Positions 7,854 to 62,406 of a stretch of 64,000 nt of DNA are shown here, in pieces (position 1 is the stretch's first letter; every line of letters starts with the position of its first letter). Both the position numbers and the translations under genes were made by a program. The notes beneath the pieces were generated by a model. The model worked only from the letters and a program-made list of their open reading frames with translations, did no database searches and was not told where the DNA came from. Source of the stretch: Paragemmobacter straminiformis (lineage in GTDB: Bacteria > Pseudomonadota > Alphaproteobacteria > Rhodobacterales > Rhodobacteraceae); contig NZ_JACLQD010000002.1 of assembly GCF_014243445.1 (NCBI RefSeq), positions 620,001 to 684,000 on the forward strand, given 5' to 3'.

Positions 7854-7963
7854 GCGATTTCCGGCGCGGAAATCGCAACGGAATTTGACGCAAATTCCGG
7901 AGGTTGACGCAAGCGCCCGGAAAATGCGCCATTTTCCGACGCGGAATTTGCGTCAAATTCCGC
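7854..7963. repeat. Array of four short hairpins with 5-base G...C loops
   Basis: Hairpins at 7854-7876, 7879-7899, 7918-7938 and 7941-7963 have perfect 8-9-base arms, and their loops read GGCGC, GACGC, GCGCC and GCGTC. Arms differ in sequence, but two share the GGAATTT core. The same design recurs at 45298-45410. Confidence 0.8.
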
Positions 7964-44974: not shown

Positions 44975-44984
44975 GGAAAAGCAA

Positions 44985-45013
44985 AAAGGCGACCCGATCG
45001 GGTCGCCTTTTTT
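44985..45013. terminator. Bidirectional terminator after the GNAT gene
   Basis: A perfect 26-base palindrome from 44985 (AAAGGCGACCC on the left, GGGTCGCCTTT on the right) ending in T6. It lies between the GNAT gene and the convergent tRNA-Asp. Confidence 0.88.
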
Positions 45014-45198: not shown

Positions 45199-45297
45199 GT
45201 ATCCACGGCCCGGCCCTCCGAACGTGAGCGGGTATTACGGAAGGGCGCGGGCGGCGTCAAGCGACCTTTCGGATTTTTTCGCCGCTCGCCGCGACTT

Positions 45298-45410
45298 GCG
45301 GGATTTACGCAAATCCCGCAGCGGTTTCTGACGCAGAAACCGCTTCCGACCGTTGGCGCAGAACCGGAATTTGCGCCAAATTCCGGCGCGATTTTTGCAT
45401 CAAAAATCGC
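45298..45410. repeat. Array of four short hairpins, second copy of the design
   Basis: Hairpins at 45298-45319, 45320-45344, 45364-45386 and 45388-45410. All arms are perfect, 9-10 bases (e.g. CCGGAATTT/AAATTCCGG), with loops ACGC, GACGC, GCGCC and GCATC. It lies between the tRNA-Asp pair and the 3' end of the pirin gene; compare 7854-7963. Confidence 0.82.
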
Positions 45411-45412
45411 CC

Positions 45413-46345
45413 TTACGGCGCCGGAATGAACTCTGCATCATCCCCCGGCGGCAGGCGGAAGCGGCCATGCGCCCAGTCGCCGGCGCGCCATGCTTCCTTG
45501 GCGGCCTCGATGCGCTCTTTCGACGAGGCGACGAAATTCCACCAGATATGACGCGGACCATCCATCGTCGCACCGCCCAGCAGCATCAGGCGCGCGCCAT
45601 CCTCGCCCGCCCTGACCGAGATGCGGTCGCCGGGGCGGAACACCAGCATCTGGCCCGCAGGAAAGGTCTGGCCGCCCACCGAAACGCTGCCCGCGATGAT
45701 GTAGATGCCGCGATCCTCGTGGTCATCGGGAAGGGGAATCGCGGCGCGGGGGGACAGGGTGGCATCGGCGTAGAACACCTCGGACGGGGTTTTCAGATCG
45801 ACCCGTTCGCCCCATGCCGTGCCAAGGATCAGCTTGACCTGCTTGCCCTCGCCTTCGAGGTCGGGCAGGGCCGCGCCGTGGGCGTGGTGGAAGGCGGCGG
45901 GGTCATCCTCGTTCGCCTTTGGCAGGGCAAGCCATGTCTGAAGGCCGAAGAGGCCATGGGGCGACTGGCGCATCGGGCCATCGGTGCGTTCGGAATGGGT
46001 GATGCCGTGGCCTGCGAACATCAGGTTCACCGCCCCCGGTTCGATCCACTGGTCGGTGCCGAGGCTGTCGCGGTGGTGCATCTTGCCCTTGAGCAGGTAG
46101 GTCACCGTGGCAAGCCCGATATGGGGGTGGGGGCGCACGTCGATGCCCTGCCCCGTCAGAAATTCGGCGGGGCCCATCTGGTCGAAAAAGATGAAGGGCC
46201 CGACCATCTGGCGCTGGGCCGAGGGCAAGGCGCGGCGCACCTCGAAGCCGCCAAGGTCGCGGGCGCGGGGCACGATCACCGTCTCGATGGCATCGACGGC
46301 ATCGCCGATCGGGATCGACGGGTCGAGGGCGGGGTTCCAGCTCAT
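45413..46345 (-). CDS. Pirin family protein
   Basis: A 310-residue bicupin. The N-terminal pirin domain has the metal-binding RPHPHIGLATVTYLLKGKMHHRDSLG, with His/His and a later His and Glu (HSERTD); the C-terminal cupin lies from about residue 190 (EDRGIYIIAGSVSVGG). Bacterial pirins may be quercetin dioxygenase-like or regulatory. It ends directly at the hairpin array, which may serve as its 3' end. Confidence 0.94.
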   Translation of the reverse strand: MSWNPALDPSIPIGDAVDAIETVIVPRARDLGGFEVRRALPSAQRQMVGPFIFFDQMGPAEFLTGQGIDVRPHPHIGLATVTYLLKGKMHHRDSLGTDQWIEPGAVNLMFAGHGITHSERTDGPMRQSPHGLFGLQTWLALPKANEDDPAAFHHAHGAALPDLEGEGKQVKLILGTAWGERVDLKTPSEVFYADATLSPRAAIPLPDDHEDRGIYIIAGSVSVGGQTFPAGQMLVFRPGDRISVRAGEDGARLMLLGGATMDGPRHIWWNFVASSKERIEAAKEAWRAGDWAHGRFRLPPGDDAEFIPAP

Positions 46346-46560
46346 ATCGGCCTCCGGAGTTTCATTCTGAAAAGATAGGGGATCGGGGGGCCGCTGTCAT
46401 GCACCCTGCCCCGCGCCGTCTCTGTGCGGTGAGGCACAGAGCGCGCAAGAATCTTGCGGGCCGAGGGAACCGGAACCGCAGTTCGGGCGCTGTGGGGGTG
46501 GACCGGTTGGCTTCGCTTGCCCAGCCCGCGCGGTCGGATCAGCCAAAGGACATGCTGCCC

Positions 46561-52681: not shown

Positions 52682-53812
52682 TCAGAGCGGTTCGATGTCG
52701 CCCTGCGCGCGGCGGGCGTGGAAATCGGCGACAAAGGCCGCAAGGCTTCCTGCGGCGATGGCGTCGCGCAGGCCCTGCATCAATTCCTGATAGTAATGCA
52801 GGTTGTGCCAGGTCATCAGCATCGAGGCGATGATCTCGCCGGCCTTGTTCACATGGTGCAGATAGGCGCGGGAATAGTTGCGGCAGGCGGGACAGCCGCA
52901 GTGTTCGTCCAGAGGCCGCGGGTCGTTCTGGTGGCGGGCGTTCTTGATGTTGATCTGGCCCATGCGGGTCCATGCCTGCCCCGTGCGCCCCGAGCGCGAG
53001 GGAAGCACGCAATCCATCATGTCGATGCCACGCTCGACCGCGCCCACGATGTCGTCGGGTTTGCCCACGCCCATCAGGTAACGCGGCTTGTCCTCGGGCA
53101 AAAGGCCCGGGGCGTAGTTCAGCACGTCGAACATGGCCTCTTGCCCCTCGCCCACGGCCAAACCGCCAACGGCATAGCCGTCAAAACCGATGGCGCGCAG
53201 GGCGGCGGCGGATTCCTCGCGCAGCGCGCGGGTGACGCCGCCTTGCATGATGCCGAAAAGCGCATGTCCGGGGCGGTCGCCAAAGGCATCGCGCGAGCGT
53301 TGCGCCCAACGCATCGACAGGCGCATGGATTTCGCCACCTCGGCATCGGTGGCGGGCAGCGCGGGGCATTCGTCGAAGCACATGACGATGTCAGAGCCGA
53401 GAAGCTTCTGGATCTCCATGCTGCGTTCGGGCGAGAGCATGTGCTTGGAGCCGTCGATATGGCTCGAGAAGCGGACGCCCTCTTCGGTCAGCTTGCGCAG
53501 TGAGGCGAGCGACATGACCTGAAACCCGCCCGAGTCCGTAAGGATCGGCCTGTCCCAGTTCATGAACCGATGCAGGCCGCCCAGTGCCGCGATGCGTTCG
53601 GCGGTGGGGCGCAACATCAGGTGATAGGTGTTTCCAAGCAGGATGTCGGCGCCCGTGGCGCGCACGCTTTCGGGCAGCATCGCCTTGACGGTCGCGGCGG
53701 TGCCGACCGGCATGAAGGCCGGGGTGCGGATCGCGCCGCGCGTGGTTTCGATCACGCCCGTGCGTGCCTTGCCGTCGGTCGCGTGAACCGTGAAGCCGAA
53801 CCCTGCCGCCAT
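52682..53812 (-). CDS. tgt: tRNA-guanine transglycosylase
   Basis: A 376-residue Tgt that exchanges guanine 34 for preQ1 in GU(N) tRNAs. It contains catalytic Asp segments [10 protein letters not shown] and [15 protein letters not shown] and the zinc site [16 protein letters not shown]. The start at 53812 follows AAAGGGGG. Together with queA it provides late queuosine steps; tRNA-Asp (GTC), a substrate tRNA, is in the same window. Confidence 0.97.
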
Positions 53813-54245: not shown

Positions 54246-54644
54246 TCAGCGCATCTCGCACAGGGCGGTGCCGGTATCGATGACCACGCGCACCCCGAAG
54301 CTGAGCCGGTAGAACACCGTCGGTTCGGTGTTCGGACCGTCGGACTTGCGCGGGATCGGCGAGAGATTGCGGCTTTCGATCATGCAGGTGACGGGCGGGG
54401 CGGCACCCGCGACGGGACCGAGCTGGAACAGGTCGAGGCCGCAGTCACGCGCGCGGTCGCGGTCGAGCGTGCCGCAAGACATGTCGGAGATATCGTGGAA
54501 GCGGCGGCTTATGGGGTCGTAGATCGCCTCGCCGGCGCTGAGTTCCTCGACGGCGGTGTAATCGTCGGGCGCCACTCCGGTTCGGAGTTTCGTCCCCGCC
54601 GCAAGCATGCGGACAGAGAGCAAGGCAAAGCTCTGGTCGGTCAT
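54246..54644 (-). CDS. 132-residue protein with a degenerate Hint-like segment
   Basis: An orphan cytoplasmic-looking protein. Residues 14-52 (AAGTKLRTGVAPDDYTAVEELSAGEAIYDPISRRFHDI) resemble the opening of Rhodobacterales Hint domains, in which a Cys precedes ...GT.I.T..G...VE.L..GD.V.D; here the catalytic Cys is Ala, so no autoprocessing is expected. A middle DRARDCGLDLFQLGP and three further Cys follow. The similarity is by eye only. No partner gene is clear; it lies between tgt and the bciB-like gene. Confidence 0.5.
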   Translation of the reverse strand: MTDQSFALLSVRMLAAGTKLRTGVAPDDYTAVEELSAGEAIYDPISRRFHDISDMSCGTLDRDRARDCGLDLFQLGPVAGAAPPVTCMIESRNLSPIPRKSDGPNTEPTVFYRLSFGVRVVIDTGTALCEMR

Positions 54645-54896
54645 TTGGCAGCCACTCGCAAGAGGACACTCGGAACAGGCGCCCTTGTCCCCCCCAGGAT
54701 TTCGGACGCCTTTTATTTATCGCACTTTCCCGCCACCCGATCAACAAGATGCTGCCGGAATGGGGCGCGCCCTTGGCGTTGTGGAAGAATGCGCGACAAT
54801 TACCGGGCCAAAGCGGGGCATGTTTCCAAACGGGAAACAATCGGTGGGCTGACGGGCCAAGACACAGCGGCGTTGGCCGGAAAAGCGAATCGCGTG

Positions 54897-56156
54897 TCAG
54901 GTCTTGTCGGTGTCGCGGCGCTCGTGATCGGCGGGTTCGATGCCGTATTTGCGCACCAATCCCCAGACATGCGCGGGCACCATGTTCTTGACCCGCGCGG
55001 GAAAGCTGCGGCGCAGGTGAAGGACGGTCTCGATGGCCTTCATCTCGACCCGCGCGCGCGCGAATTCGAGACCGCGCGGCCCGATGCGCGGTTGCAGGAA
55101 GGCGACGACGGGGCGCAGCCAGTCGGGCATGCTGCGCAGGGGCAAGCCGCCCGCCGCGCGTTCGGTGTTGGCCATGAAGCCGCGCACCGCCGTTTCGCGC
55201 TTGCCCCTGTCGGTGAGAGGGCGGGTTTTCAGGCGGTCTTGCAGCATGGCCAGAAGGGCAACGCCACGCGGGTTGCGGGCGATCACCCATTGGTCGCCAT
55301 CGCCGCCCATGTAGCCCACGGTCACATCGGCCAGACGGTTGGTATAGTCGACGCAGGTCTTGCAGGTAACGGGGAAGAAATCGGCGGGCAGTTTGGACAG
55401 CGGCAATTTCAGGAATGGCACGAGACGCGGCTTGCGGCCATCGTCGAAGCGCAACTCGACGCGGTAGTCGGCGCGGAATTCGAGATAGCTGATCGTCTGG
55501 GGATGCGGGTCGATCTGGCGGAGGAAGGCGTGGAAATTCTCGGTCGTGGTGTTGTCGGAACAGGGGGTTCCGATGACATGGATGCTTTCGAAGCCAAGTT
55601 CCGCCTCGAGCGCGCGCAGGGCGTGGACCTGACAGGGAATGCCGATCAGCGCGATGCGGCGGTGGCCTGCCGCAGCGACGGGTTCGAGCAGCGCCAGCGT
55701 CGGGGCCCAGCCCATCCGCATGCCGCGCACATTGGCAAGGGCGGCGGGATCGGTCACCACCACGGGCACCGGTTTCCAGCGGTCGAAGGGATCGGGGGCG
55801 ACGGTCAGAACGGCGGTGACGGTGCCGGTTTCCAGCAGGCGCGCGGCAAGGGCTGTGGTGATGCCGCTCCATTGCGCACCGGCCAGAGGCTTGGCAAGGC
55901 GCGCGCGCATCATGCTTTGGGTGACGCCGAAGAAGCCTTCCTCGCCAAGGCCCGGATCGGCGGTGCGCCCGTGGACGCGGCGTTCGAGGCCGGCATAGTC
56001 GGGGTTGATGAACTGGCAGGCCTTGCCGCAGGCCTTGCCGTCGCCAAGCCGGGAGACGCCGCAATCGGTGCAAAGCCCCGGCCGCGCCGCGCCGCCGATC
56101 ACCGGACTTTGCAAGCCGGTATCGAAGCAAAGGTTCGCGGTCTGTCCGTCGGCCAT
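54897..56156 (-). CDS. bciB: BciB-like 8-vinyl reductase (FrhB/FdhB family)
   Basis: A 419-residue iron-sulfur flavoprotein of the coenzyme F420 hydrogenase beta-subunit family, closest in motif style to chlorophyllide 8-vinyl reductase BciB and plant 7-hydroxymethyl chlorophyll a reductase. Shared marks are GTPCSDNTTTENFHAFL, a CKTCVDYTNRLADVTVGYMG segment, the N-terminal CTDCG and CGKACQF cysteines, and GIPCQVHAL. In bacteriochlorophyll synthesis it would reduce the C8 vinyl group with ferredoxin. The start is ATG at 56156 (a GTG one codon earlier is possible). A TGT-N12-ACA palindrome lies about 70 bases upstream. Function is a family-level inference; HCAR-like activity is the alternative. 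Confidence 0.8.
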   Translation of the reverse strand: MADGQTANLCFDTGLQSPVIGGAARPGLCTDCGVSRLGDGKACGKACQFINPDYAGLERRVHGRTADPGLGEEGFFGVTQSMMRARLAKPLAGAQWSGITTALAARLLETGTVTAVLTVAPDPFDRWKPVPVVVTDPAALANVRGMRMGWAPTLALLEPVAAAGHRRIALIGIPCQVHALRALEAELGFESIHVIGTPCSDNTTTENFHAFLRQIDPHPQTISYLEFRADYRVELRFDDGRKPRLVPFLKLPLSKLPADFFPVTCKTCVDYTNRLADVTVGYMGGDGDQWVIARNPRGVALLAMLQDRLKTRPLTDRGKRETAVRGFMANTERAAGGLPLRSMPDWLRPVVAFLQPRIGPRGLEFARARVEMKAIETVLHLRRSFPARVKNMVPAHVWGLVRKYGIEPADHERRDTDKT

Positions 56157-56221
56157 CACATGCCCCAAGACGTCGGTGCGACGTCGCGGGCAGAGTAGCG
56201 TTAAAGCGCGGTGCAGTCCAA

Positions 56222-56251
56222 CGAAACTGTCAGAAAAATCTGACAGTTTCG
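56222..56251 (-). promoter_or_regulatory. Palindrome with TGT-N12-ACA, PpsR/CrtJ operator candidate before bciB
   Basis: A 30-base perfect dyad (13-base arms around AAAA) from 56222 to 56251. Its centre, 56228-56245, reads TGTC-AGAAAAATCT-GACA, an exact TGT-N12-ACA and TGTC-N10-GACA match to the PpsR/CrtJ site. It lies 66-95 bases upstream of the bciB start. A transcriptional hairpin is the alternative, but no T-run follows. Confidence 0.7.
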
Positions 56252-56356
56252 CAGGACGTTTTGTCACGCCCGCGCGCGCCCCGCCCCGGGGTTGGCCGCG
56301 AAACCCCGATGGCGGCCCTTGAATACGCCGTAGGGCGTGGTAACCACCCTGCCCAA

Positions 56357-56446
56357 GGAAGTGTGGCCGAGTGGTTTAAGGCTCTAGTCTTGAAAACTAG
56401 CGTAGGGGGAACCCTACCGTGGGTTCGAATCCCACCGCTTCCGCCA
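56357..56446 (+). tRNA. tRNA-Ser (TGA)
   Basis: 90 bases with encoded CCA and a long variable arm (GTAGGGGGAACCCTAC). Acceptor GGAAGTG/CGCTTCC, anticodon loop CTTGAAA giving TGA. Confidence 0.97.
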
Positions 56447-56686
56447 AGTCTGCCGATCCGTCTGCCATGGCGCGAACAGGCGGGCGCGGGCATCGCCCTG
56501 CCCTTTCAGCCCGTTCCGGCGCCCCTTATGTCGCGGCGCTTGGGCCTGCCCCGCTGTGTGGCGGATGCAGCAGCACCGCGCCCGGAATGGGTGCGCCAGG
56601 ATTTTTTCCAGCACAGGCGACCCAAACTATAGTATGTAAAGCTTAATTAATAACTTTTGGCGCGGGCAGCACAAACAGGAGACAGG

Positions 56687-56884
56687 ATGTTGCGTATTGA
56701 TTTTCGACGTGACGAAAGCGGATTGGCACTGACGGAATACCTTGTTCTTCTCGGATTGATCGGCGGCGGGGTGATTTTTACCGTGCTGGCCTTCGGGGGC
56801 TATCTGGGCGAAAACTGGCGGAGCTGGTCAGGCATGTATCAAATGCTGAGCGAGACAGCCCCCACTAATGCCAGCGGCCCGTAG
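56687..56884 (+). CDS. Flp/Fap-type pilin-like small protein
   Basis: A 65-residue protein beginning MLRIDFRRDESGLALTEYLVLLGLIGGGV. The basic head, ESG.A.TEY motif with Glu five residues into the mature part, and one hydrophobic helix match type IVb (Flp) prepilins; the tail after the helix is short. The ATG at 56687 has AGGAGACAGG upstream. No tad/cpa assembly or prepilin peptidase gene is near, so it is an isolated copy. The region before it is AT-rich (TTAATTAATAAC), unlike its neighbours. Confidence 0.7.
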   Translation: MLRIDFRRDESGLALTEYLVLLGLIGGGVIFTVLAFGGYLGENWRSWSGMYQMLSETAPTNASGP

Positions 56885-57153
56885 ATAGGCCACGCCACAG
56901 GGCCGCAAATGCGGGCGCAGCCTTCGGGCTGGCGCGCGTTTTAGCCTGTTGCGACCCTGCCGTGAGGGAGTGACCCTACGGACCATCGGTGCGCAAAAGA
57001 TGTGTAACGTTCTACCCATCCGCATGGATGGAATTTTCATTCTATCATTTTTGCCCGATTCCTGCAAAAAAGGCCCTGCCCGATGCGATGGCGTGCAACA
57101 GGGGCTTATCTTGGCGGCGTGTATGGCCTTGTCGATCCAGCGGAAGGTCACAG

Positions 57154-57477
57154 ATGCTTTGCTACACGGCTGTCATCCGCCCCGAAGGGCCGAGTTCCTT
57201 TGGCGTGACCTTTCCTGACCTTCCTGGATGTCGTGCCGGATCGGAAACCTGGGCGGGGGTGCCCGAAGCGGCAAAACAGGCGATGGAGACATGGTTTGCA
57301 AGCAGGCCGCATGTCGAACCCTCGGCGCTGGCCGCGCTGCTGGATCGTGACGACATCGCGGAGTCGGTTGCGATGGGGGCTTTGCTTTTGCCCGTCTTCT
57401 ATGCCCGCCGCAGTTTCGGGCAGGCGTCCGGCGCCGTGACCACGCCGGTTGCCGGGGCGGACCACAGAGCCGGGTAA
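57154..57477 (+). CDS. HicB-like antitoxin-fold protein, no HicA partner
   Basis: A 107-residue protein. Residues 1-45 show the HicB partial RNase H-like fold: YTAVIRPEGPSSFGVTFPDLPGCRAGSETWAGVPEAAKQAMETW, with the FPDLPGC signature. The remainder (SALAALLDRDDIAESVAMGALLLPVFYARR) is family-poor. The start at 57154 has GGAAGG. No 60-codon HicA double-stranded-RNA-binding frame is seen on either side, so it is an orphan that may be regulatory. Confidence 0.75.
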   Translation: MLCYTAVIRPEGPSSFGVTFPDLPGCRAGSETWAGVPEAAKQAMETWFASRPHVEPSALAALLDRDDIAESVAMGALLLPVFYARRSFGQASGAVTTPVAGADHRAG

Positions 57478-57505
57478 GGGCGGCGGCACGGACCGCCACC
57501 CCCTT
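57476..57505. terminator. Hairpin between the convergent hicB-like and dabA genes
   Basis: GGCGG (57482-57486), loop CACGGA, CCGCC (57493-57497), with outer GGG/CCC extension. Confidence 0.6.
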
Positions 57506-57511
57506 CTTCTG

Positions 57512-59869
57512 TCAGGCAGCCTTGCGCGCGGGGCTGGCGAAGGGTTCCCATCCCATGCCTTGCAGGTAGCGGTCGGCCACCTGACCGGCATCGTCGATCC
57601 GCAGCAGATGCAGCCATTTCTGGTCGAACAGGTCGCGGACACCTGCATGGCGCGCGAGGATGTCGGTGATCGCCTGGGCCGGAGCCTCGACCAGCACGGT
57701 CAGGCGCAGCGGGTCGTGTTGCAGCCTTTCCCCGTCATGCACCGATTGCCACGGCAGGCCGACACGCGGCGCGCCGCCGTGGCCTTCGAGGACGCCGAAG
57801 CCGCCCACGACGTTGTGCAAAAGCTTGTTGCCCCCGCCGAACGCCTGCGGCGCGACCGTCGAGCCGTAATATTGCAGGCTGATCCAGCTTGCCACCACGA
57901 CGGGTGCGGTCAGGATCAGTTCCAGCGTGGCGAACCCCTCGTCCTGCCGCCAGTCGTAGCTGTGCAGGAAGGCCCGGCCGCCGAGGTCGCGGCCCTTGGT
58001 GCGAAAGCGGGGGGCGGCTATGAAGCTGGCGCAGCCCGACAGGCCCCATTCGGGACGGGTTTCGGCCCAGTCGCGGGCACGGGCTTGCAGCGCGCGCCCC
58101 CGATGGCCCGCGCGCGGCAGCCGTCCGGCCCGTTCGGCACGTGCGATCTGCGCCGCCTGTTGCAGCCAGTGGCCCACGTCGGCCATGCCTTCGGGCGCGT
58201 CGAACAAGGTGACCTCGTCGCTGACCGTATCGTGCAGGGCGGCGACGAAGCGGGTGGTTGCGGGCAGGTCGATCCCCTGCCCCGCAAGACCAGCACGGGT
58301 TTCGGGGTCATTCAGCAGGGCGGCAAGGGCGCGTGCGCTGACCGCGCCGCTGTGACCGCCGCAGGCGCCGCATTGCAGGGCGGAGCGGTGCGCGTTGTTG
58401 ACCACATGCGCGCCGTGCCCGACCAAAAGCACCAAGGGCGCGAAGCCCGCACGCAGCGACATGGCCCCCAGAACCTTGGCACCTATGGCGACCTTGGCGT
58501 TCCGGTCCAGCCCTTCGATCACGGGGGCGGGCTCGGGGGCTGCGGATTTGCCACCGAAGCCGAGCGCATCGCGCAGCAATTTGGCACCGTAAAGCGGGCC
58601 GACCGCCTCGACAAAGGCGAAGGACGAGACGGCGGCCTGCCGGAAGCGGCCCCAAGCGCGGGTCGAGCGGGCGGCGATGCGGGCGGCCTCTTCCACCTGC
58701 GGCGCGGCGGCGGGCGCGCTGTTCAGAGCGGGTGCCAGAAGCACGGGCAGATGGGCTTCGGCGGCGACAGCGCCAAAGGGGCGATGGGCGAGCGGCAGGC
58801 CGAAGAACCCGGCAAAGCCGATGGTTTCGATGGCCGGATCGAGGCTTTCGAGCGCGCGGCGGAACACCTCGGACCGGACGTCGATGCAGAAGGCCGCTTG
58901 CAGCTTCGGGGCAGTGGACTGCGGGGTTTCCCCCTGAAGCGCATCTGCCAGCCGCCGCTGCGCCGCCCGTTCGGCTGCCGATTGAAGCGCCGCGTCGAGC
59001 GCGTCGTCATAGCCGGGTGCCGCAGCCGCGCCAAAGGCCACGCGTGCCGCAGCCCAAAGTTCGGCCAAAGGCGCGCCGTAACGGGCGAGCAGTGCCTCGT
59101 CCCAGATCAGCCGCAGCGCCAAAAGATCGGCAAGCGACCCGTCGGTGCCGCCCTGAAGCTCGGCCTGCCATAGCTGCCAGCGCGCGGCCTGCGCCCAGCC
59201 CCCAAGGCGGTGCAACAGGGCGTGGAAATAAAGCTCGGCCTCGGGCGCGCCGATGCCAAGCGAGGACACGGCGCGGGCCACGGCAGACCATGCATCGTCG
59301 GGGGCGGCGGCGGCATGGTCGGCAAAGCCGGTCAAGCCCGCGATTTCGGGCACAAGGTCATGCGTGGCATGGGCGCGCCATGCGGCGTAAAGCCCTTCGC
59401 CCGCGGGGAGCGGCCAGAGGGCCTGACCCTGATCGAAACGGGCCGCGCAAAAGCTGCCGATCCGGTCGAGAAGGATCGTCGGCCAGTCGATGCCGGACAG
59501 CTGCGCGGCAAGGTCGGCAACCGTCGGGATCGGCTGCAACGGCGCTTCGGGTGCGTCGAGCGCAGCCAGAAGTTCGGGCAAGGTCAGATCGGCCTCGCTG
59601 GCTGCCGCTGCGAGATCGGCGTGGGTGATGCGCCCCGCCGCGACCTCGGCCGCGAAGTGGCTGCGCGGCAGGGTCAGGCGCAGCCCCCCGACACGGCCGA
59701 GCCGCGCCGAGGTTTCGGCCAGACCCAGCGCCGATTGGCCGAGGAAGGGGTTCACCGCCACTGTGGCCGACAGGGGGAAGGCGGGCGGAATGGCCTGCAT
59801 CGCGGCGCGGGCGGCGCTGATGATCTCGAGGAAGGGGCCGGTGAAATTGTCGCGGTGTTTGACGAGCAT
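57512..59869 (-). CDS. dabA: DabA, DUF2309 carbonic-anhydrase-like subunit
   Basis: A 785-residue protein of the DUF2309 family, now known as DabA, the cytoplasmic zinc subunit of the DAB inorganic-carbon pump, with a beta-carbonic-anhydrase-like site. Family marks visible are AFCIDVRSEVFRRALE (Cys and Asp of the metal site), LVGHGAHVVNNAHRSALQCGACGGHSG (His and Cys), and the N-terminal TVAVNPFLGQ. The start is taken at ATG 59869, whose GGAG lies 6 bases upstream; an ATG at 59881 is also in frame. It follows dabB by 23 bases. Confidence 0.95.
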   Translation of the reverse strand: MLVKHRDNFTGPFLEIISAARAAMQAIPPAFPLSATVAVNPFLGQSALGLAETSARLGRVGGLRLTLPRSHFAAEVAAGRITHADLAAAASEADLTLPELLAALDAPEAPLQPIPTVADLAAQLSGIDWPTILLDRIGSFCAARFDQGQALWPLPAGEGLYAAWRAHATHDLVPEIAGLTGFADHAAAAPDDAWSAVARAVSSLGIGAPEAELYFHALLHRLGGWAQAARWQLWQAELQGGTDGSLADLLALRLIWDEALLARYGAPLAELWAAARVAFGAAAAPGYDDALDAALQSAAERAAQRRLADALQGETPQSTAPKLQAAFCIDVRSEVFRRALESLDPAIETIGFAGFFGLPLAHRPFGAVAAEAHLPVLLAPALNSAPAAAPQVEEAARIAARSTRAWGRFRQAAVSSFAFVEAVGPLYGAKLLRDALGFGGKSAAPEPAPVIEGLDRNAKVAIGAKVLGAMSLRAGFAPLVLLVGHGAHVVNNAHRSALQCGACGGHSGAVSARALAALLNDPETRAGLAGQGIDLPATTRFVAALHDTVSDEVTLFDAPEGMADVGHWLQQAAQIARAERAGRLPRAGHRGRALQARARDWAETRPEWGLSGCASFIAAPRFRTKGRDLGGRAFLHSYDWRQDEGFATLELILTAPVVVASWISLQYYGSTVAPQAFGGGNKLLHNVVGGFGVLEGHGGAPRVGLPWQSVHDGERLQHDPLRLTVLVEAPAQAITDILARHAGVRDLFDQKWLHLLRIDDAGQVADRYLQGMGWEPFASPARKAA

Positions 59870-59892
59870 GTCTTTCTCCATCTCCAAGGGGA

Positions 59893-61425
59893 TCACCGTG
59901 CGAAGCCGCCGGTCAGGCGGTCGAACAGGGCGTTGGCGTAAAGGCCGTTGGCAAGGTGGACGCGCAAGCCACGCGCGGCGGGGTGTTGCGACCAGAGCGG
60001 GAACATCGCCTGCGCCAGCGCCACGGCGCCGAAACTGGCCAGCGCAAGCAGGATCAGCGCCCATTCCAGCGGCCCGGGGGCGGGCGTGGCAGGCAGGGTG
60101 CCACGGGTCAGCGCCTCGGCCCCGATTTGCAGGGCGAAGTAGCTGACGGCCGACAGACCCGAGGCAAGGAGGACCCGCCACATCAGCGCGCGGGGCGCGG
60201 CATCGGCCAGACCTTGGGCGATCAGATAGGCGACACCGAAGATCAGCATCGCGCCAAGTGCGAGGGCCTGCGGCGACTTGCCGTCGATGCCGAAGGCAAG
60301 GGCGACCGTTGCATAGACCGCCAGCGCCAGCGCAAAGGCGCGGAACACGGCGCGGGCCGAAGGGATCGCCACGGGGCCGGGGCGGCGGTTCGCCCGCACC
60401 TCGGCCACGGCATTGCCCGAGGCGAGGAAGGCATGCGCCTTGTAAAGCGAATGGGCGACGATGTGCAGCAGCGCCAGCGGGAACAGCGCCAAGCCGCATT
60501 GCAGGATCATAAAGCCCATCTGCGCCACGGTCGACCATGCCAGCGCGGTCTTGACGGCGGGCTGGGTGAGCATCACAAGCCCCGCGACAAGCGCCGAGAA
60601 GCCGCCCACCGCAACCAGCACCGCCAGAACTCCGGGTGCCGACAGCATGACATCGGCCATGCGGATCAAGAGGAAACCGCCTGCATTGACAACCCCGGCA
60701 TGAAGCAGGGCCGAGACGGGGGTGGGTGTCTCCATCATCTCGACCAGCCAGCCGTTGAGCGGGAAGAGCGCCGATTTCAGCATGGCGGCGATGGCCAGAA
60801 GGGCGGCGGCAAGCATGGCCCAGGGGCCGGCGGCGGTGGCGTTCAGCGTGGCGATATCGCCCGTGCCGAAGGCCGCAACCAGCGTGACCGAGGCCGCGAT
60901 CACGGCGGCGTCGCCCATGCGGGCGGTGATCGCCTTTTTGCGGGCGGCGCGGCGGGCCTGGATCCGGTCGGGGTAGAACAGCAAGAGTTTGTGCAGCCCG
61001 AGCGCCACGCCGACCCATGCCGCGACCAGTTGGCCAAGGTTTCCGGCCGTGACCAGCAGCATGACGGCAGCAAGGACCAGCGCCATCCAGCCGGTAAAGG
61101 CCCCCTGCCGCGCCTCGCCGTCAAGATAGGTGGCCGAATAGCGCAGCACGACCCAACCGATGAAGGCCACCAGCAAGAGCATCGTCACGCTGACCGCATC
61201 GAGCCGGACCGAAAGGCCAACCCCCGACAGGCCGAGCAGCGGCGAGGTGCCGGCGCCTTGGGTGGCAAGCAGAAGGGCAGCGGCTATGGCCACGACAATG
61301 GCGAAAAGTGCCGTGATTTCAGCAACAAGCAGGCTGCGGCGCGGGCGAAGCGCGGGGCCGGCAAAGGCGAAAGCCGCAGCAAGGGCGAGCGAGAGGGGAG
61401 CAAGGTAGACGAGCAGGATCGGCAT
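59893..61425 (-). CDS. dabB: DabB, NuoL/NdhF-like membrane subunit
   Basis: A 510-residue polytopic protein of the proton-conducting transporter family (about 14 helices). Antiporter-like lysine and glutamate segments are present, such as MLKSALFPLNGWLVEMMETPTPVSALLHAGVVNAGGFLLIRM and a His-Lys pair in HIVAHSLYKAHAFLASGN. With DabA it forms the two-gene energised uptake of inorganic carbon (bicarbonate/CO2 hydration coupled to the membrane potential). There are no other complex-I genes here, so it is not a respiratory subunit. Confidence 0.93.
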   Translation of the reverse strand: MPILLVYLAPLSLALAAAFAFAGPALRPRRSLLVAEITALFAIVVAIAAALLLATQGAGTSPLLGLSGVGLSVRLDAVSVTMLLLVAFIGWVVLRYSATYLDGEARQGAFTGWMALVLAAVMLLVTAGNLGQLVAAWVGVALGLHKLLLFYPDRIQARRAARKKAITARMGDAAVIAASVTLVAAFGTGDIATLNATAAGPWAMLAAALLAIAAMLKSALFPLNGWLVEMMETPTPVSALLHAGVVNAGGFLLIRMADVMLSAPGVLAVLVAVGGFSALVAGLVMLTQPAVKTALAWSTVAQMGFMILQCGLALFPLALLHIVAHSLYKAHAFLASGNAVAEVRANRRPGPVAIPSARAVFRAFALALAVYATVALAFGIDGKSPQALALGAMLIFGVAYLIAQGLADAAPRALMWRVLLASGLSAVSYFALQIGAEALTRGTLPATPAPGPLEWALILLALASFGAVALAQAMFPLWSQHPAARGLRVHLANGLYANALFDRLTGGFAR

Positions 61426-61524: not shown

Positions 61525-62406
61525 ATGGAACTGAACTACAACCATCTGCGCTATTTCAGGGCCGTCGCACTCGAGGGGAATCTGACCCGGGCAGCGGCGC
61601 ATCTGAACCTGTCGCAATCGGCTTTGTCCGTGCAGATCAAGGCGCTGGAGGACCGGTTGGGCCATCCGCTGTTCGACCGGATCGGGCGGCGGCTCGAGTT
61701 GACCGAGGCGGGGCGGATCGCGCTGGATCATGCCGAGACGATCTTCAAGACGGGTGACGAGCTGATGGCGGTGTTGCGCCAGTCGGGGCGGGCGCGCAGT
61801 GCCATCAGGGTGGGTGCGCTGGCCACGCTGTCGCGGAACTTCCAGCTTGCGTTCCTGCGGCCTTTGCTGGGGCGGGCGGATGTGGAAATCGTGTTGCGTT
61901 CCGCGGGGATGGCGGAACTTCTTCGCGGGCTCGAGGGGCTTGCGCTGGATGTGGTGCTGAGCAACGAATCCGTGCCGCGGGATGCGGCGACGCCGTTTCT
62001 GTCGCGGCGGATCGCGGGGCAGCCCGTCAGCCTGATCGGCAGGCCCGAGCGGCAGCGGGCGGGGGATGACCTTGGCATCCTGCTGGCGCGGGAGCCGCTG
62101 ATTCTGCCCACGGCGGAAAGCGGCCTGCGGGCGGCCTTTGACGGTCTGGCCTCGACCTTCGATGTGGTGCCGCAGATCGCGGCCGAGGTGGATGACATTG
62201 CAATGATGCGACTTTTGGCGCGCGAGGGGGTCGGACTGGCCCTGTTGCCGCCCATCGCGGTCACCGACGAGCTGGCAGCGGGAACGCTGGTCGAACATGC
62301 GCGGCTTGAGGGGGTGGTCGAGAGTTTCTACGCCATTACCCTGACCCGGCGCTTTCCCAACCCCTTGGTCGCCGAGTTGCTGCGCGGGGATCGTGCGGCG
62401 GGTTAA
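61525..62406 (+). CDS. LysR family regulator divergent from dabBA
   Basis: A 293-residue LysR regulator. The HTH segment is MELNYNHLRYFRAVALEGNLTRAAAHLNLSQSALSVQIKALEDRLGHPLFDRIGRRLELTEAG, of the NhaR-like subgroup, followed by a substrate-binding domain. In chemoautotrophs, dab operons lie beside a LysR gene; the divergent layout here suggests control of dabBA by inorganic carbon. The effector is unknown. Confidence 0.92.
   Translation: MELNYNHLRYFRAVALEGNLTRAAAHLNLSQSALSVQIKALEDRLGHPLFDRIGRRLELTEAGRIALDHAETIFKTGDELMAVLRQSGRARSAIRVGALATLSRNFQLAFLRPLLGRADVEIVLRSAGMAELLRGLEGLALDVVLSNESVPRDAATPFLSRRIAGQPVSLIGRPERQRAGDDLGILLAREPLILPTAESGLRAAFDGLASTFDVVPQIAAEVDDIAMMRLLAREGVGLALLPPIAVTDELAAGTLVEHARLEGVVESFYAITLTRRFPNPLVAELLRGDRAAG

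Follow-up and report, generated by a model that had tools for sequence, protein, structure and literature searches.

A gene on the minus strand of the stretch of DNA analysed here (64,000 nucleotides, referred to as the window) most likely encodes, judging from its sequence, an 8-vinyl reductase repressed by PpsR, and very probably this is a BciB-type enzyme standing in for BciA. BciB is a ferredoxin-dependent 8-vinyl reductase (Chloroherpeton thalassium, Synechocystis Slr1923), and BciA is the NADPH 8-vinyl reductase of Rhodobacter sphaeroides. The product, a flavin and iron-sulphur enzyme, would act in bacteriochlorophyll a synthesis by turning 3,8-divinyl chlorophyllide into its 8-ethyl form, replacing the unrelated NADPH enzyme BciA, and its gene would stand alone in the genome with an operator of its own. 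At high oxygen (or light), PpsR would bind TGTCAGAAAAATCTGACA and repress the gene along with other pigment genes, a repression that a putative PpaA/AerR encoded beside ppsR may relieve; once repression was lifted, the enzyme would be made, and electrons would pass via two iron-sulphur clusters to FAD for reduction of the 8-vinyl group. We infer both the regulation and the chemistry (PpsR binding, the direction of regulation, the substrate and the ferredoxin donor) from the protein families named. The features concerned are as follows:

54897..56156, minus strand: bciB-like gene, 419 aa from its ATG, with FrhB_FdhB_N/C domains, BciB/HCAR group
56016..56072, minus strand: changed first iron-sulphur motif, codons 29-47 (Cys29, Cys32, Ser35, the new Cys43, Cys47)
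56222..56251: inverted repeat, CGAAACTGTCAGA-AAAA-TCTGACAGTTTCG, with 13-base arms and a 4-base loop
56228..56245: predicted PpsR/CrtJ operator core, TGTCAGAAAAATCTGACA, 71 bp 5' of the ATG
56357..56446, plus strand: tRNA-Ser(tga), divergent neighbour
54246..54644, minus strand: 132-aa ORF between the bciB-like gene and tgt, a candidate gene without Pfam or NCBIfam match
52682..53812, minus strand: tgt, tRNA-guanine transglycosylase (TIGR00430, E 3e-146; start chosen by eye)

The first-pass annotation had placed the gene next to tgt, which is nearly so, but the 132-aa ORF intervenes. It had also described the gene as standing apart from any photosynthesis cluster; the cluster is on contig C11 and the window on C9, separate contigs of a draft genome. 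The reading frame continues without a stop as far upstream as a GTG at 56267, and a start there would place the dyad inside the ORF; the match to HCAR starts only at residue 27 counted from the ATG. Rfam searches of positions 54800-57500 gave the tRNA as the sole match. Further along, a HicB-like antitoxin domain protein is encoded at 57157-57477 on the plus strand (PF15919, E 5e-8), and a DabA match (PF10070, E 3e-243) covers residues 405-1136 of the minus-strand ORF 57512-61018, beside a proton-antiporter-type membrane subunit (59893-61425, minus strand) and a divergent LysR gene (61525-62406). The minus-strand segment 57512-61425 is likely an inorganic carbon uptake operon, in which the antiporter-type subunit would be DabB.

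The protein and its first iron-sulphur motif

In Pfam searches the bciB-like protein matched PF04432 and PF04422 (the FrhB_FdhB N and C domains), and the NCBIfam FrhB/FpoF models matched it far under their cut-offs; its homologs are recognised by family models only as F420-hydrogenase-like protein. The best solved relative was HCAR, which in plants reduces 7-hydroxymethyl chlorophyll (PDB 5dqr, E 4.9e-66, 36% identity; the next structure, 4.5e-16), and this homology spans the whole length of the protein. An AF2 model that drew on 36 sequences, no other alphaproteobacterial ortholog among them, and reached a mean pLDDT of 79 (residues 1-26 and 411-419 below 50) likewise had HCAR as its top Foldseek match (TM 0.82-0.85, vs 0.45-0.57 for F420-type proteins). 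HCAR differs, however, in clustering with the cyanobacterial-type proteins in the tree described below, and these bacteria are not known to contain its substrate. The bciB-like protein is 34-42% identical to 35 proteins drawn from the Chromatiaceae group, the Chloroflexota-labelled set and the cyanobacterial type.

A tree was made of 85 proteins, and the 37 orthologs used from the same family (Rhodobacteraceae) form one clade in it (97/95), sister to the cyanobacterial-type proteins and HCAR plus the Chromatiaceae/Chloroflexota group, and six FrhB-type proteins of that family are separated with 100/100 support. The exact place of the ortholog clade is unsure because long branches meet, as the tree program warned. 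The tree took 17 of the 56 cyanobacterial-type loci, leaving out 39, and omits the partial L091, L092 and L119 and one FrhB-type protein of more than 700 aa; its group labels were assigned by us, L142 carrying a Chloroflexaceae title yet grouping with cyanobacteria. The two characterised BciB proteins are outside the set, and the cyanobacterial-type proteins in it were taken as BciB on the literature for the absent Slr1923 (PMC13297055, in excerpt). It had been proposed that the gene encodes a BciB/HCAR-type reductase and that its product should group with BciB or HCAR rather than with FrhB-type proteins. The latter part was borne out, the protein being a whole-length homolog that groups with BciB/HCAR apart from the FrhB-type proteins, but in this tree it sits on a sister branch outside both clades and has a changed cysteine motif. 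With presumed BciB (cyanobacterial-type, Chromatiaceae) it shares homology along its whole length, cysteines 175, 199, 265 and 268, the CxDN motif and phototrophic hosts; it differs from them in its branch and in its first cysteine set.

Of the cysteines expected for two [4Fe-4S] clusters, the second set is retained; the first motif reads CxxC-x10-C-x3-C in the window protein, so that four cysteines are kept in another layout, with Ser at position 35 where the comparison groups have Cys. All 38 family orthologs covering the region lack the third Cys of CxxCGxC, which is Ser in the 30 whose motif sequence was inspected, and have a new Cys four residues ahead of the last one. The new Cys was found in none of 22 Chromatiaceae-group, three Chloroflexota-labelled, 17 cyanobacterial-type and seven FrhB-type proteins, nor in HCAR, and the old third Cys is present in all members of these groups that were compared. 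The same changed motif occurs in 7/7 further alphaproteobacterial loci inspected, six of them from other families; an eighth, L206, was unmatched by the motif search expression and stands outside the seven. Cys43 would act as a ligand in place of the missing third cysteine. A model of Slr1923 sets ferredoxin against residues 9-40 (PMC13297055, in excerpt), a span that in our reading includes the changed motif, and our hypothesis is that the change alters the contact with the electron donor. Because of the deep sister position and the changed CxxCxxC motif, substrate or donor could differ from those of known BciB; the moved cysteine is a testable idea on electron supply in this enzyme group.

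Distribution of bciB-like and bciA genes

The family sample comprised 198 genomes, almost one per genus, of which 39 have a bciB-like ortholog (E 3e-126 or better; FrhB-type proteins matched the same query at E 3e-4 to 1e-8). Thirty-seven of these matches are near whole-length, that of G030 is partial and that of G091 is split across two contigs; an in-frame TGA lies within the match in two of the 39 (G020 and G063). Reaction-centre genes are present in 84 of the 198 genomes and in 38 of the 39 with an ortholog (Fisher p 4e-16, kinship ignored). In G027, without puf or ppsR match, a bciB-like gene with a PpsR-like site scoring 26.4 lies on contig C24 (L185); this contig is only 3,164 bases long, so misplaced DNA is possible, and the gene is possibly a remnant or part of a misplaced contig. 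In a wider set of 385 alphaproteobacterial genomes the gene was found in nine, the window's own included (E 1e-30 or better), and seven of the nine belong to other families. The occurrence of BciB in some purple bacteria is already published (PMC7242693, in excerpt).

A BciA-like gene was detected in 38 of the 198 family genomes (E 2e-52 or better; the next match, 8e-19) with a plant query sequence, and three of these genomes (G090, G159 and G172) are without puf. No genome among the 198 carries both genes, and the 84 with reaction-centre genes divide into 38 with the bciB-like gene, 35 with BciA and 11 with neither (Fisher p 3e-14, kinship ignored). It should be noted that BciA and BciB occur together in Acaryochloris marina according to the literature available in excerpt, so exclusion is not a defining feature of BciB. 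PpsR is encoded in 82 of the 84 puf genomes and in 85 of the 198 overall.

Neither gene was found in full in G008, G021, G025, G029, G082, G107, G142, G157, G182, G188 and G196; six of these (G025, G029, G082, G107, G182 and G188) are at least 95% complete, and G142 has a bciB-like fragment at a contig end. A conventional 8-vinyl reductase may therefore not be strictly needed, and these eleven may rely on chlorophyllide a oxidoreductase, which can carry out 8-vinyl reduction (PMC4214422, in excerpt), or on another enzyme.

The existence of the eleven genomes, together with a protein that falls outside the other tree groups and has a changed cysteine motif, is what can be said for a BciB homolog acting on some other tetrapyrrole, as HCAR does, with a real PpsR site serving a different step. 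We regard this as unlikely, as exclusion of BciA throughout 198 genomes with many switches between the two is what equivalent function predicts, and these bacteria are not known to have a chlorophyll b cycle. With 8-vinyl reduction as the preferred function, a likely 8-vinyl reductase can be named for 38 of the 84 family genomes in the sample that carry reaction-centre genes.

PpsR-like sites upstream of the gene, its orthologs and bciA

The gene had been reported to follow a perfect 30-base dyad containing TGTC-N10-GACA, an exact TGT-N12-ACA, and this had been read as a predicted PpsR/CrtJ operator. The 13-base arms of the dyad match fully, but its AAAA centre is not self-complementary; among inverted repeats in the window with arms of at least 10 bases and loops of up to 10, its arms are the second longest. 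Both patterns match exactly at 56228-56245, but TGT-N12-ACA in the form given is too weak a pattern to support an operator. The loose pattern was rejected as evidence by itself, being close to chance in the window (six observed vs a shuffle mean of 4.5, with 30 of 100 shuffles equalling that count) and slightly above the control across the genome (404 vs 326 for the reversed pattern), and a stricter matrix test was therefore used. The matrix was built from 13 R. sphaeroides ChIP-seq sites 5' of named genes, taken from the first 18 rows of a table in PMC4344238 (in excerpt), leaving out those at hypothetical genes or not upstream of any gene. On it the operator core scores 22.4, the top score in the 64 kb of the window (runner-up, 13.6) and inside the range of the 13 published sites (13.4-25.5); the best score in 60 random first-order Markov sequences of window length was 18.9.

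PpsR sites have been described as tandem upstream of several operons (PMC10890935, in excerpt), and no strong second site was found here, the next places near the gene scoring 13.6 (56635, past the tRNA gene) and 8.7 (56215). Single sites do occur in the ChIP-seq table (PMC4344238, in excerpt), so tandem arrangement is not strictly required. The site thus has the exact core and the high score of PpsR/CrtJ operators, but it is single, sits in a longer dyad and lies on a contig other than that of the photosynthesis cluster. A sigma-70-like promoter was looked for beside the core, and none was found.

The organism had been called a phototroph or a recent descendant of one, and a genome search for puf, bch and ppsR had been suggested. 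The search found pufL/pufM-type genes, BchE, BchZ, BchB and PpsR (C11:119759-121078, TIGR02040, E 2.5e-165), which are the genes of a phototroph; "recent descendant" is not needed. A B12-binding-domain protein, just above the Pfam cut-off, is encoded beside ppsR and is putatively PpaA/AerR. In the 4.1 Mb of the genome, TGTCA-N8-TGACA occurs at eight places and TGT[AC]A-N8-T[GT]ACA at 15, vs one for each reversed control, and eight of the 15 fall within C11:117.6-140.2 kb, inside the photosynthesis cluster. One of the genome's sites, TGTCAGTTTTATCTGACA at C11:121234, is very like the operator core and stands directly before bchE, and a PpsR-like site at C8:846227-846244 (L003; score 17.1) lies 32 bp before the ORF of hemE, a ChIP-seq target of PpsR in R. 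sphaeroides (PMC4344238, in excerpt). Three of the 15 places score merely 12-13 on the matrix (C8:43766, C11:117678 and C11:368410), and that at C11:117678 falls within an ORF; some of the 15 need not be PpsR sites.

The operator prediction is strengthened by the orthologs, which mostly share little neighbourhood. The strict pattern was found at 18 of 30 of them (in 360 bp spanning the estimated start and the sequence before it), with 0.0006 expected per locus from mononucleotide shuffling, and matrix scores of at least 16, a cut-off of our own choice, occur upstream of 22 of 37, the window's own included, vs none in the Markov controls of that set (the partial loci L091 and L092 are outside the 37). 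The remaining 15 have no site of at least 16, three of them scoring 12.7-14.1, and all 15 genomes carry PpsR. Control by PpsR is therefore not universal, and since PpsR is present in 82 of the 84 puf genomes, the missing sites are not explained by an absent regulator. Among the Chromatiaceae/Chloroflexota-group homologs, no site of at least 16 was found upstream in any of 25; PpsR in those bacteria may read other sites.

For bciA, such sites were found upstream of two of 34 loci, in effect two of 33 since L056 was without upstream sequence in the scan, which also left out four of the 38 genes, these four being cut by contig ends; the difference from 22 of 37 gives a Fisher p of 1e-6 (kinship ignored). 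BciA, which presumably catalyses the same step, is set apart from the bciB-like protein by its unrelated family, by its absence alongside it in 198 genomes and by its upstream sequence. In at least three genomes (G164, G045 and G123) bciA lies within 4-10 kb of pufLM, and such genes might be served by distant PpsR-controlled promoters beyond the 330-bp scan. A strong PpsR-like site precedes bciA in two cases only, L063 in G165 (19.3) and L068 in G011 (23.0); on the PpsR tree these genomes neighbour bciB-like ones or fall among them. We take RSP_3070 to be the R. sphaeroides tag of bciA. In the available part of the main text of PMC4344238, neither name is given.

Since some of the TGTCA-N8-TGACA-like places have G+C-rich cores and lie outside the photosynthesis cluster (for example C1:22709 and C8:43766), another regulator reading this pattern could own the site; we think this quite unlikely, as the closely similar TGTCAGTTTTATCTGACA precedes bchE and the orthologs of the gene track reaction-centre genes. 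It is very improbable that the dyad acts instead as an RNA leader hairpin, attenuator or terminator. Its minus-strand RNA does fold stably (-30.5 kcal/mol, z -8.2) and its arms reach six bases past the PpsR core, but no U-run follows, and it is the 18-bp core that recurs in orthologs while positions and outer bases vary, comparably long outer arms being seen by eye in L025 only among the 22 ortholog sites. That the gene encodes an FrhB-like protein with a role in polysaccharide or some other metabolism, preceded by a chance dyad, is scarcely credible: homologs carry the annotation F420 hydrogenase/dehydrogenase beta subunit C-terminal domain protein and the Pfam domains are of that kind, but the FrhB-type proteins of the family split off in the tree and match at far weaker E values than the orthologs, and the dyad core recurs 5' of the latter.

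Locus settings and exchange of the two enzymes

The neighbourhoods of 26 loci (flanks of about 3-6 kb, shorter at contig ends; ORFs of at least 90 aa with a composition filter) were compared with the ORFs of the window and the photosynthesis cluster at E 1e-20. No conserved neighbourhood was found, 19 of the 26 matching solely by the gene itself and an ORF antisense to it. In G140 (L201), beside the photosynthesis cluster, acsF, puhE and a gene for 5-aminolevulinate synthase are directly followed by the ortholog, which is encoded on the other strand; in G105 (L088) a DabA homolog (55%) lies about 1 kb from the bciB-like gene, DabA being near the gene in the window too; and in G001 (L204) a homolog (69%) of the window ORF 45416-46396 adjoins the ortholog. 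Neighbourhood matches of 30-50% identity at L190, L194, L199 and L203 are probably paralogs. No tRNA-Ser was found near the ortholog in 13 loci scanned, and blastn of about 1.5 kb around the gene gave no common flank with the other genome of the same genus. Outside the family, the homolog in 'Candidatus Thiodictyon syntrophicum' is two genes from bchI-bchD-bchO. The bciB-like gene is usually scattered outside the photosynthesis cluster, and the PpsR-like site would explain how photosynthetic control persists there.

On a tree of 81 PpsR proteins, comprising those from 80 of 84 other PpsR genomes and the window's own, the bciA/bciB-like state must have changed 19 times or more across the 72 genomes that carry a label. 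For bciB-like against the rest, 23 changes were counted (shuffled mean 27.2, with 40 of 500 shuffles as low), of which the well-supported branches alone require 17; 21 of 78 inner branches are weak. The labels are clustered weakly on this tree, and the distances of PpsR and of the bciB-like protein hardly correlate (r 0.13 over 630 non-independent pairs). This mixing fits repeated displacement with transfer and would also follow from transfer of the photosynthesis cluster itself. Substitution of bciA for the bciB-like gene in place was not seen in the two cases compared, L063 with L085, and L068 with L086, L197, L188 and L031.

Taken further, the alphaproteobacterial BciB could be a distinct type with a rewired ferredoxin-facing cluster, its relocated ligand perhaps accepting another donor, that travels as a unit of operator and gene and has been swapped repeatedly with BciA, so that the enzyme present would decide how the 8-vinyl step is controlled, often by PpsR for bciB-like genes and mostly not for bciA. 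This is possible, although we would stop short of calling it probable. Repeated and exclusive exchange of two unrelated enzymes, probably for one step and with differing promoter sites, offers a natural experiment in gene displacement. This analysis adds three things: a PpsR-like site that recurs before orthologs, an exchange with BciA that is exclusive within the genomes sampled, and the altered cysteine motif. A literature search of limited scope found no mention of PpsR control of bciB or of the cysteine change in the excerpts it covered (PMC4214422, PMC10890935, PMC7842958, PMC4344238, PMC13297055, PMC4836224, PMC7242693, PMC5972617, PMC4500134 and PMC6052148).

Two other kinds of repeat were seen in the window. 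The perfect 30-base palindrome at 44983-45012, which has the longest arms in the window, ends in a T-run and adjoins two tRNA-Asp genes, looks like a terminator, and the segments 45297-45410 and 7854-7963 hold several inverted repeats with 10-11-base arms and similar sequence, maybe members of a repeat family.
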